Assembly (NCBI GenBank): GCA_947624155.1
Contig: CANQJB010000009.1
Span: 1-40,957 of the forward strand
From: an uncultured Clostridia bacterium
GTDB lineage: Bacteria > Bacillota > Clostridia > Oscillospirales > Ruminococcaceae
Direction: 5' to 3'
Length of the DNA stretch: 40,957 nucleotides
A program made the translations under genes and the position numbers. Positions 3,065 through 40,634 of the stretch are shown piece by piece. Each line of letters starts with the position of its first letter. The stretch's first letter is position 1. The notes beneath the pieces were generated by a model. It worked only from the letters and a program-made list of their open reading frames with translations. It was not told where the DNA came from and ran no database searches.

Positions 3065-3081
3065 AGCGCGCAGTAATTGCG

Positions 3082-3189
3082 TTTCTTCTCTCATCCGGAC
3101 TTTACCGTCGGTATCGGAATTTCACCGATTCATGCTTTTGCTCGCGGACTTTGACCGCCGGTCGGGAATTTCACCCAACCCCGAAGAAA
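3082..3189 (-). promoter_or_regulatory. FMN riboswitch (RFN element) upstream of ribU
   Basis: Minus-strand RFN hallmarks appear in order: CTTCGGGG, GGGTGAAATTCCCGACCGGC, AAAGTCCGCGAGC, GGTGAAATTCCGATACCGAC and AAAGTCCGGATGAGAGAAG. P1 pairs 3189-3183 with 3088-3082. The aptamer begins only about 21 bases after the stop of the upstream gene. I see no clear promoter in that gap, so ribU may be read from the efp promoter or from one inside the preceding gene. Confidence 0.96.
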
Positions 3190-3210
3190 TATATTCAGTT
3201 TTTTAGAGGA

Positions 3211-34854: not shown

Positions 34855-34883
34855 ATTTTATCATAATGAGGCGATAATGTCAA
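34855..34883 (-). promoter_or_regulatory. Promoter of addB-addA
   Basis: The minus strand has TTGACA (34883 to 34878), a 17-base spacer and TAAAAT (34860 to 34855). A 6-bp inverted repeat, GGCGAT at 34870-34875 and ATCGCC at 34891-34896, brackets the -35 box and may be a binding site or chance. Confidence 0.8.
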
Positions 34884-34897
34884 ATAAAAAATCGCCG

Positions 34898-34929
34898 AAA
34901 TCAAAATAAGTCCACTAAAACGGACTTAT
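34898..34929 (-). terminator. Terminator after spoIIR
   Basis: Minus-strand RNA pairs ATAAGTCC (34929 to 34922) with GGACTTAT (34913 to 34906), 8-base loop, followed by UUUGAUUU. The spoIIR stop codon is inside the 5' arm. It separates spoIIR from addB. Confidence 0.7.
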
Positions 34930-35519
34930 CTGAACAGCTTTATAAGTTTTCTTATCGTCTCATAGCACCAGAGCTTATATCTGACCTTTTCCGGCTCTTT
35001 GACTATCATTATCTCTCCCTCGCTGAACACGCCGCAGTCCTCGATCGAGACTGCGCTGCCGAAGCAAAGGCGCGGATAGCAGACGCACCACCAGTTTCTG
35101 CCCTCGGCTCGGCCGATTCGCAGGCAGAGCGAGTCATATTCTCCGGCGGGGAGGGTGAAATCTTCATAAGCGCGCTCGGAAAACGTCTCTTTTTGAAGAG
35201 TGCAGCTAAGGTCGCAGCCGCAGCCCTCGGTCTCGAGAACCTCGCGGGCTGCGGCCTCGATTGACGGTAAACCGCTTTCGAGCCTTTCCATCACCTCGGC
35301 CTTTGAATTGCAGCCCGAAAGGAGCCGGGAAGCACATTCAAGAACGGCGTCGCGGACTTCGAGCTTTAAGCTCTGGTCATATTCGCTGTCGGAATTGGCG
35401 ATAACATGGAGCCGGATCAGCTTTTCGGTCATTCTGTTCACCTCGGAAGCGCCGGAGAATATGCTCAGAATGGCGCAGAGAAGAAGCGAAATAAGTATTG
35501 AAAGAGTCAGTTTTTTCAT
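34926..35519 (-). CDS. spoIIR: Stage II sporulation protein R
   Basis: A 197-aa protein with an N-terminal signal or anchor (about 4-24). Typical segments are LIRLHVIANSDSEYDQSLKL, LPAGEYDSLCLRIG and NWWCVCYPRLCF. In Bacillus, SpoIIR is made in the forespore under sigma F and is secreted to trigger SpoIIGA to process pro-sigma E, linking the two cell programmes. Its presence argues that the organism sporulates or descends from sporulators. The ATG is 8 bases from AGGAGG, but that site is buried in a perfect hairpin (35522-35555). mreB lies just upstream. Confidence 0.96.
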   Translation of the reverse strand: MKKLTLSILISLLLCAILSIFSGASEVNRMTEKLIRLHVIANSDSEYDQSLKLEVRDAVLECASRLLSGCNSKAEVMERLESGLPSIEAAAREVLETEGCGCDLSCTLQKETFSERAYEDFTLPAGEYDSLCLRIGRAEGRNWWCVCYPRLCFGSAVSIEDCGVFSEGEIMIVKEPEKVRYKLWCYETIRKLIKLFR

Positions 35520-35521
35520 TG

Positions 35522-35555
35522 AATAATCCTCCTGAAATTTGTCAGGAGGATTATT
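35522..35555 (-). promoter_or_regulatory. Perfect 14-bp hairpin sequestering the spoIIR ribosome-binding site
   Basis: On the minus strand AATAATCCTCCTGA (35555 to 35542), a six-base loop CAAATT and TCAGGAGGATTATT (35535 to 35522) pair without mismatch. The Shine-Dalgarno AGGAGG of spoIIR lies in the 3' arm, against CCTCCT in the 5' arm. No U run follows, so it does not look like a terminator of mreB. Transcripts that read through from mreB should be poorly translated for spoIIR. Confidence 0.85.
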
Positions 35556-35578
35556 GGCATATTATCACGCTTATATTC
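35549..35578 (-). promoter_or_regulatory. Candidate sporulation-sigma (sigma F-like) promoter of spoIIR
   Basis: The minus strand has GAATA (35578 to 35574), a 15-base spacer and GCCAATAATC (35558 to 35549). These partly match the sigma F pattern GYATA and GGnnAnAnTR, with mismatches at a few positions. A start about 7 bases on would fall at the end of the hairpin's 5' arm. A vegetative reading, TTCAAA with GATAAT at 17 bases, is also possible. The match is weak. Confidence 0.35.
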
Positions 35579-36593
35579 AGATTTTTGAAACCGAGACCTT
35601 TTCAAAGCCGTTTCTGAGCTTGTCGCGAACCTTGAACGCGAGGTGGGTGCCTCTCGCGACACAGCCGAGAGGGTCGTTCGCGACATAGCACTTGACGCCG
35701 AACTCATGGGTGATATACATATCAAGACCTCTGAGCAGCGCGCCGCCGCCGGTTATCACGATTCCGTGGTCGAAAATGTCGCCGACGAGCTCGGGTGGGG
35801 TCTTCTCGAAGACGGTGCGGATCGCCGCGACGATCGCGTCGATGTCCTCGGTGATCGCGGTGCAGATGTCGTATTCGCTGATCTCGAGCTTCGCTGGCAT
35901 ACCGGTTATCAGGCTGCGGCCGGAGATCACGCCGGTTTTTTCGTTTGAGGGCCAGAATAGGTTGGCGGTCGAAATTTTGGCGTCCTCGGCGGTGCGCTCG
36001 CCGATCAGCATTTTATAATTCTCGGCAAAATAGCGCTGAATCGAGGCGTTAAAGGCGTTTCCGGCCTTTTTTACCGAATTTGCCGCAACTATTCCACCGA
36101 GAGAGGTGACTGCGATGTCTGAGGTGCCGCCGCCGATATCGACTACCATTCTGCCGAAGGGCTTCATTATGTCCTCGCCTGCGCCGAGAAGCGCGGCGAC
36201 CGGCTCTTCGATCAGATAAACCGTTCGCGCTCCGGCGGAGACGGCGCTCTCGACTACCGCCTTTCTCTCGACGGCGGTGATGTTGCTCGGAACGCACATC
36301 ACGATCCTCGGGTTTATCAGCCTCTTGCCGATGACTTTAAGTATGCAGAGCCGGATCAGCTCCTGAGCCATGTCGTTGTTGGTGATCACGCCGTCCTTCA
36401 GAGGCTTGATGACCGCGATATGCTCGGGTGCGCGGCCGATCATGTTATATGCCTCTCTGCCGAAGGCGACTACCCTCTCGGTGTTCTTATCAAAAGCGAT
36501 GACTGTGGGCTCGTTTAGAATCGCGACGCCCCGCCCCGCGGAAATTATGATGTTGGCTGTACCGAGGTCGATGCCCAGATCAAGTACAGACAT
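35577..36593 (-). CDS. mreB: MreB/Mbl-type cell-shape actin homologue
   Basis: A 338-aa bacterial actin that guides lateral wall synthesis under the membrane. Phosphate 1 is GIDLGTANI near the N terminus, phosphate 2 VVDIGGGTSDIAV, and the adenosine motif is ITGGGALLRGLD. mreC and mreD do not follow, so this is an isolated copy, as with mbl or mreBH of Bacillus. The ATG lies one base after the comF stop, and GGAGGAGTAAA spans that stop. spoIIR lies downstream, which may point to a role in sporulation-time shape change, but this is only context. Confidence 0.95.
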   Translation of the reverse strand: MSVLDLGIDLGTANIIISAGRGVAILNEPTVIAFDKNTERVVAFGREAYNMIGRAPEHIAVIKPLKDGVITNNDMAQELIRLCILKVIGKRLINPRIVMCVPSNITAVERKAVVESAVSAGARTVYLIEEPVAALLGAGEDIMKPFGRMVVDIGGGTSDIAVTSLGGIVAANSVKKAGNAFNASIQRYFAENYKMLIGERTAEDAKISTANLFWPSNEKTGVISGRSLITGMPAKLEISEYDICTAITEDIDAIVAAIRTVFEKTPPELVGDIFDHGIVITGGGALLRGLDMYITHEFGVKCYVANDPLGCVARGTHLAFKVRDKLRNGFEKVSVSKI

Positions 36594-40311: not shown

Positions 40312-40397
40312 GCCGCTGTGGTGAAATTGGCAGACACATGGGACTTAAAATCCCCCGCCCTTAAAGCGTACCGGTTCGAGTCCGGTCAGCGGCACCA
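40312..40397 (+). tRNA. tRNA-Leu (anticodon TAA), CCA encoded
   Basis: An 86-base class II tRNA on the plus strand, the only plus-strand gene in the window. GCCGCTG (40312-40318) pairs with CAGCGGC (40387-40393). The anticodon arm TGGGA-CTTAAAA-TCCCC gives anticodon TAA. A long variable arm and the T arm CCGGTTCGAGTCCGG follow, with A and CCA at 40394-40397. Confidence 0.97.
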
Positions 40398-40398
40398 T

Positions 40399-40437
40399 GT
40401 AAAAAGGCAGACCCCTTGAGGGGGTCTGCCTTTTTAC
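40399..40437 (+). terminator. Terminator of tRNA-Leu
   Basis: GTAAAAAGGCAGACCCC pairs with GGGGTCTGCCTTTTTAC, a perfect 17-bp stem with loop TTGAG and U residues at the 3' side. It begins one base after the encoded CCA. Confidence 0.93.
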
Positions 40438-40596: not shown

Positions 40597-40634
40597 ATAT
40601 AATAAAAGGCACCTGTCAGTGCCTTTTATTATAT
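40597..40634. terminator. Bidirectional terminator between the GNAT gene and the tRNA-Leu region
   Basis: ATATAATAAAAGGCAC pairs with GTGCCTTTTATTATAT, a perfect 16-bp stem with loop CTGTCA. A and U runs on the two sides would allow termination from either direction. It lies 27 bases after the GNAT stop codon. Confidence 0.85.

Follow-up and report, generated by a model that had tools for sequence, protein, structure and literature searches.

The window analyzed in this study is a stretch of 40,957 nucleotides. Its minus strand carries, in order, recD2, a comF-like gene, mreB, spoIIR, addB, and a long open reading frame (ORF) that is taken as addA from its place past addB. SpoIIR acts as the signal from the forespore through which sigma-E in the mother cell becomes active. 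The spoIIR product matches PF09551 with 146.4 bits (E=8e-43), over the curated cut-off of 25, and its TIGR02837 score of 143.2 bits is below the cut-off of 151.9. The upstream gene was identified as mreB by profile matches. The spoIIR start codon is 57 nt past the end of mreB, and the mreB stop codon TGA (35579-35577) supplies the opening letters of TGAATA and thereby overlaps the -35 box of a sigma-F-type promoter (Table 1). By eye, several leaders from the same genus have this overlap as well.

Table 1. Coordinates of features at the mreB-spoIIR junction
Feature	Position	Strand	Basis
mreB, upstream gene and presumed read-through source	35577..36593	-	PF06723, E=6e-115
-35 box GAATA, sigma-F-type promoter	35574..35578	-	random-start motif and pattern match
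-10 box GCCAATAATC	35549..35558	-	seeded model, random-start motif, and pattern match
Hairpin 5' arm AATAATCCTCCTGA, part of the -10 box plus seven bases beyond; anti-SD strand only in read-through RNA	35542..35555	-	
Hairpin loop CAAATT	35536..35541	-	
Hairpin 3' arm TCAGGAGGATTATT, contains the Shine-Dalgarno sequence (SD) AGGAGG (35533-35528)	35522..35535	-	
Predicted transcription start, 7th base past the -10 box	35542	-	inferred
spoIIR coding sequence, 197 aa, ATG at 35519-35517	34926..35519	-	PF09551

A good sigma-A-like promoter precedes addB (34855-34883, minus strand; TTGACA-17-TAAAAT, 11/12, with TG before the -10 box), so addAB need not rely on read-through from spoIIR. Elsewhere on the minus strand, the window has two riboswitches above gathering score, FMN (3079-3192) and SAM (2168-2260).

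Hairpin over the spoIIR ribosome-binding site

The spoIIR SD is enclosed in a hairpin with a mismatch-free 14-bp stem and a loop of six nucleotides, exactly as the first-pass annotation of this DNA had described it. The 5' arm runs from base four of the -10 element to the base where polymerase is expected to start, and CA lies between the 3' arm and the spoIIR ATG. Perfect stems of at least 14 bp with loops of 3-12 nt are expected 0.0017 times in the whole window. Two longer perfect inverted repeats are present, at 40399-40437 (17-bp stem) and 40597-40634 (16-bp stem); they sit just past a tRNA gene (40312-40394) and are probably terminators or repeats. The spoIIR hairpin has a folding z-score of -4.4, and none of 200 shuffled sequences was as stable. 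At the score required for gathering, Rfam gave no match at the junction in the window or at 13 other loci, and the weak matches had E values from 0.78 to 4.6.

Opening the spoIIR SD is predicted to cost ~21 kcal/mol in the long RNA, the highest value among 33 window ORFs called by a simple rule (the runner-up is 11.9), vs 4.4 kcal/mol in the short RNA. The latter cost is nearly unchanged (5.1 to 4.4 kcal/mol) for starts at +4 to +9, so the result is independent of the exact start. We refer below to the pairing of the promoter-side segment with the SD as the lock.

The hairpin lies directly after mreB, and no other terminator-like site was found on the minus strand between 34700 and 37300. It could therefore end the mreB transcript, or it could guard that mRNA from exonucleases as a 3' stabilizer, a role compatible with a lock, and hiding of the SD would then be a side effect. 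Against this, the stem is followed by CAATGAAAAAAC and lacks the U-run of an intrinsic terminator, and the 3' arm always tracks the SD. Moreover, the lock is still present in the family, where spoIIR mostly lacks mreB before it (a search for mreB gave 40 ORFs in 210 sequences). We consider a primary role in ending or protecting mreB RNA very unlikely.

A sigma-F-type promoter at spoIIR and sigG

spoIIR was found in all 31 genomes of the genus and in 120 of 148 genomes of the family. A seeded two-block model was applied to 137 usable loci (136 of 146 plus the window; the other 10 had a short upstream region or a doubtful start) and found a promoter in 121, at a score met by 0.44% of shuffles, although this model was scored on its own training set. 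Because of the seeding and self-scoring, the motif search was redone from random starts with the genus left out. In 236 loci outside the genus, it returned TGAATA-14/15-GNCAATAATN, with the long form nTGAATA-(14/15)-GnCAATAATn. Under this motif, the window sequence CTGAATA-15-GCCAATAATC, with 15 nt between GAATA and the -10 box, scores 14.1. The first-pass annotation had proposed a weak sigma F-like promoter here. The position holds, since it is conserved and coincides with the random-start motif, but the promoter is not weak, since it follows the consensus of near relatives.

In C. difficile, sigma-F promoters are marked by a G that heads the -10 element (PMC3789822). The spoIIR promoter fits this type in both boxes, in spacing, and in the G heading the -10 box, and its sequence suggests a forespore promoter that sigma-F itself would read. 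Excerpts of the same source report that some spoIIR expression remains without sigma-F in C. difficile (PMC3789822), so sigma-F need not be the sole route everywhere.

The exact GAATA promoter pattern has two sites in the genome, at spoIIR and before sigG. A reversed control also gave two, so the number of matches is uninformative and only their places inform. A third exact match (L342; genome G000, C4:45028-45055) lies between an ORF for a MATE-type transporter (by eye) and, following it, a lipoprotein-like ORF of 144 aa. The lipoprotein-like gene is possibly another forespore gene, and by eye it has no clear SD lock.

The promoter is close to spoIIR in 29 of the 31 genus loci. The exceptions are L066, where it is 974 nt from the start codon, and L077, where it is 126 nt away. 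In L066 (genome G025), the promoter, 5' arm, and loop directly follow mreB, and ~970 nt of other DNA come before the SD; this DNA splits the hairpin 3' arm and is a natural separation of promoter and gene. In L077 (genome G005), palindromic extra DNA lies between promoter and start codon, and by eye a terminator-like hairpin and T-run follow mreB.

The spoIIR-type promoter was also present in 22 of 29 sigG loci (taken from 30, with the partial L239 left out). In these 22 loci, the upstream segment of the locus itself occluded the SD more than segments swapped in from other loci (10.9 vs 5.8 kcal/mol; own higher in 18/22, p=2e-5). Among the matches listed, at least 14 of 30 genomes have a second sigma-family match on the strand of sigG, ~0.4 kb ahead of it. 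We take this to be sigE from the gene order. At least two promoters serve sigG in C. difficile, including one before spoIIGA (PMC7438776). For gpr, another forespore gene, the promoter was found in 2 of 27 loci (27 of 30 taken, as three were second pieces), too few to be informative.

The lock in relatives and its relation to gene order

Long and short RNAs were compared in 110 of the 121 promoter-bearing genus and family loci. The median SD opening cost was 10.8 kcal/mol with the promoter region vs 3.6 kcal/mol from the predicted start. The upstream segment added more than 2 kcal/mol in 90 of the 110 loci, more than 4 in 72, and less than 1 in 13. In 11 of the 121 loci with the promoter, the predicted start lies beyond the first base of the SD. 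A transcript from the candidate promoter had been proposed to lack the anti-SD strand, and the partners of the SD agree with this: in 145 co-directional loci, the pairing mass is 0.66 ahead of the predicted start vs 0.04 within the transcribed leader. The corresponding values in 45 divergent loci are 0.43 and 0.07.

Co-adaptation of the arms was assessed by exchanging promoter-side segments between species; all locus statistics given here come from loci that share ancestry. In 83 family loci outside the genus, mean occlusion was 10.8 kcal/mol with the own segment vs 5.2 with that of another species (own higher in 69/83, p=2e-13). The class set comprised 70 loci from 140 matching genomes, taken best-scoring first or hand-picked for spread; in the 46 used, the values were 7.8 vs 4.7 kcal/mol, with the own segment higher in just 28/46 (p=9e-4). 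The genome_contigs set gave 9.7 vs 4.9 kcal/mol (own higher in 23/28, p=9e-6) for 28 of its 52 loci (L011-L062), some of which are probably of the same species as whole-genome loci, an overlap corrected only in the reduced 155-locus analysis below. In the 27 genus loci, own segments also exceeded swapped ones (mean 12.2 vs 9.0 kcal/mol; own higher in 23/27, p=1.5e-5).

The fairly good pairing of swapped segments within the genus is what would be seen if -10 boxes and SDs were complementary merely through composition or common motifs. However, own segments outperform both swapped and shuffled ones in the family, class, and genome_contigs sets, and neither the paired changes nor the dependence on gene order described below fits such a by-product, which we regard as extremely improbable. 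Of 70 loci read outside the class (from 128 matching genomes of the phylum, best-scoring first or hand-picked for spread), the promoter model recovered only 12. The comparison is weak there, with own segments exceeding swapped ones in 8 of the 12 (p=0.039).

Paired changes in the stem, which the first-pass annotation had suggested looking for in related genomes, were seen in an alignment of 14 rows from the genus. Five of 12 pairs changed on both sides, and covariation was 0.322 vs 0.190 in shuffled and at most 0.151 in slid versions. The 14 rows were hand-picked out of 31 loci for a stem near the -10 box, which biases the pairing percentage upward. The number of pair types is unremarkable (reached by 77 of 500 shuffles), and in 11 of the 14 rows the outermost positions do not pair. 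In the family, the arms are, by eye, wholly different words, such as CCGTCC/GGACGG, CCTGTCC/GGACAGG, and GCACGTCC/GGACGTGC. By eye, two leaders may represent other solutions: L011 has a terminator-like hairpin across the -10 box, and L014 has a long helix that extends over the start codon.

A near-perfect palindrome over a promoter is also a usual layout of an operator, and the repeat could be a DNA site for a dimeric regulator of spoIIR. Such a site would keep its sequence and spacing, but the loop length varies, the arms change together, and family arms differ in both sequence and spacing (by eye). A dependence on the direction of the upstream gene and on terminators would not be expected of an operator either, and we give this explanation little credence.

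A lock that silences read-through RNA is expected to be strong only where read-through is possible. Lock strength was expressed as excess occlusion of the SD over shuffled segments and compared in 192 of 269 loci, with the upstream gene called by a simple longest-ORF rule. Median excess occlusion was 5.65 kcal/mol behind co-directional genes (n=145) vs 0.22 behind divergent genes (n=45; p=2.6e-6). After removal of near-duplicates and of all genus loci except the window (155 of the 192 loci left), the values were 5.54 vs 0.22 kcal/mol (p=1.8e-5). In this reduced set, occlusion was 7.83 kcal/mol where the upstream gene ends within 80 nt vs 3.25 where it ends farther away (p=0.003). It was 6.92 kcal/mol in 82 loci without a terminator-like site vs 1.18 in 15 loci with one (p=0.001). 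Among genus loci, the values were 9.3 without (n=14) and 2.9 with (n=11) such a site (p=1.4e-4). When each divergent locus was paired with a close co-directional relative, 29 of 45 pairs differed in the expected direction (p=0.007). Against the expectation, excess occlusion reaches 3 kcal/mol or more in 15 of the 45 divergent loci. Outside the class, the trend between close and far upstream genes is reversed (4 vs 8 loci), and zero divergent loci are left to compare.

Absence of the stem from close relatives with the same gene order had been named as evidence against the proposed switch. For the most part it is not absent: in 15 genus loci the upstream gene ends no more than 80 nt away, and excess occlusion reaches 3 kcal/mol or more in 14 of them. 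The hairpin, the conservation of the promoter, the co-adaptation of the arms, and the dependence on the direction, distance, and terminator of the upstream gene are direct features of the genomes compared. The lock is present in many relatives and is probably kept mainly where run-in transcription is possible.

Proposed mechanism and relation to known systems

These features argue that spoIIR probably carries a translation lock that would act only on read-through RNA, with the SD exposed in RNA from its own sporulation promoter. In the mechanism that we infer, with its start site, sigma factor, read-through, translation difference, and benefit, polymerase leaving mreB would transcribe through the spoIIR promoter region. 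In that RNA, the -10 region together with the seven bases that follow it would pair with the spoIIR SD, and little SpoIIR would be made from growth-phase RNA. In sporulation, sigma-F polymerase would begin at the final base of the 5' arm or close to it, and the resulting short RNA, lacking the anti-SD strand, would be translated normally. The promoter DNA would thus have a double role, the DNA itself serving as a -10 box and its RNA copy, made only in transcripts begun elsewhere, serving as an anti-SD. The benefit may be avoidance of premature pro-sigma-E processing.

Silent long and active short transcripts are known for some phage and regulatory genes, and two systems of this kind can be named. 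In phage T4, long early RNAs of gene e (lysozyme), soc, 49, and I-TevI hide the ribosome-binding site (RBS), late promoters lie within the DNA encoding the 5' strand so that the short late RNA is without that strand, and the long RNA of gene e yields ~100-fold less lysozyme (PMC3014915). In B. subtilis, excerpts of PMC5942855 and PMC2530871 describe a large hairpin at sigG (spoIIIG) that blocks translation of read-through RNA from spoIIG. The stable SD helix in the long RNA that defines this kind was found here at ~21 kcal/mol in the window and at a median of 10.8 kcal/mol in 110 loci. The second mark, a 5' strand within the own promoter, was found relative to the predicted start (pairing mass of 0.66 vs 0.04).

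spoIIR is like T4 gene e in that the long RNA hides the SD and the 5' strand is encoded by the own promoter region, for the predicted start. The T4 case differs in concerning the timing of phage late genes, with no sporulation or cell-type control. B. subtilis sigG, like spoIIR, is a forespore gene behind a gene transcribed elsewhere, with an RBS hairpin only in read-through RNA. The differences are the gene (spoIIR behind mreB), the phylogenetic range, and the stem (14 bp vs 20+ at sigG); at spoIIR, furthermore, the -10 region itself forms the arm, and the lock co-varies and follows gene order. The kind of mechanism is therefore already known, and what is added here is its occurrence at spoIIR, its wide range among Clostridia, the evidence that the two arms are co-adapted, and the link between lock strength and gene order. 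No description of a spoIIR lock or hairpin was found in the non-subscription literature searched, and none occurs in the consulted parts of PMC5942855, PMC2530871, and PMC6353076.

B. subtilis sigG also has small RBS hairpins within the transcript from PsigG, which cut translation 2-4-fold (PMC5942855, in the part consulted). They resemble the spoIIR hairpin in sequestering the RBS of a forespore gene, but the small sigG hairpin has 5 bp and lies inside the transcript, whereas at spoIIR the lock precedes the predicted start. If the true spoIIR start were farther upstream, the hairpin would be part of the sporulation transcript and would tune or delay spoIIR translation, like the sigG leader hairpin. 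A weak sigma-A-like site (9/12) ending at 35561 would yield such hairpin-containing RNA, but by eye it is not common to the aligned genus leaders. The -10 box of the conserved promoter sits within the arm, and a barrier of ~21 kcal/mol would burden the sole productive RNA. A leader hairpin would also need no dependence on upstream direction or terminators, and that dependence was found. We judge this reading improbable, though less so than the other alternatives. The leader hairpin, the DNA operator, the mreB terminator, and the by-product of composition were all rejected for the reasons given with each.

The lock may be part of a wider design rule in Clostridia, which we favor with some reserve. 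Early forespore commitment genes (spoIIR and sigG) that follow genes with transcription in a different cell or at a different time would use their -10 region a second time as an anti-SD, and the lock would be gained, lost, and re-invented with new sequences as gene order and terminators change. If this rule is true, eukaryotic long, poorly translated transcript isoforms would be a counterpart of such a bacterial developmental lock.

The lock would account for the position of spoIIR, 57 nt past a growth gene with no terminator, and it may provide a sequence signature for forespore genes facing read-through. The comparative pattern makes the idea of the lock directly testable. Loci with a divergent upstream gene are natural controls and open the cost of leaky sporulation signals to testing as well.
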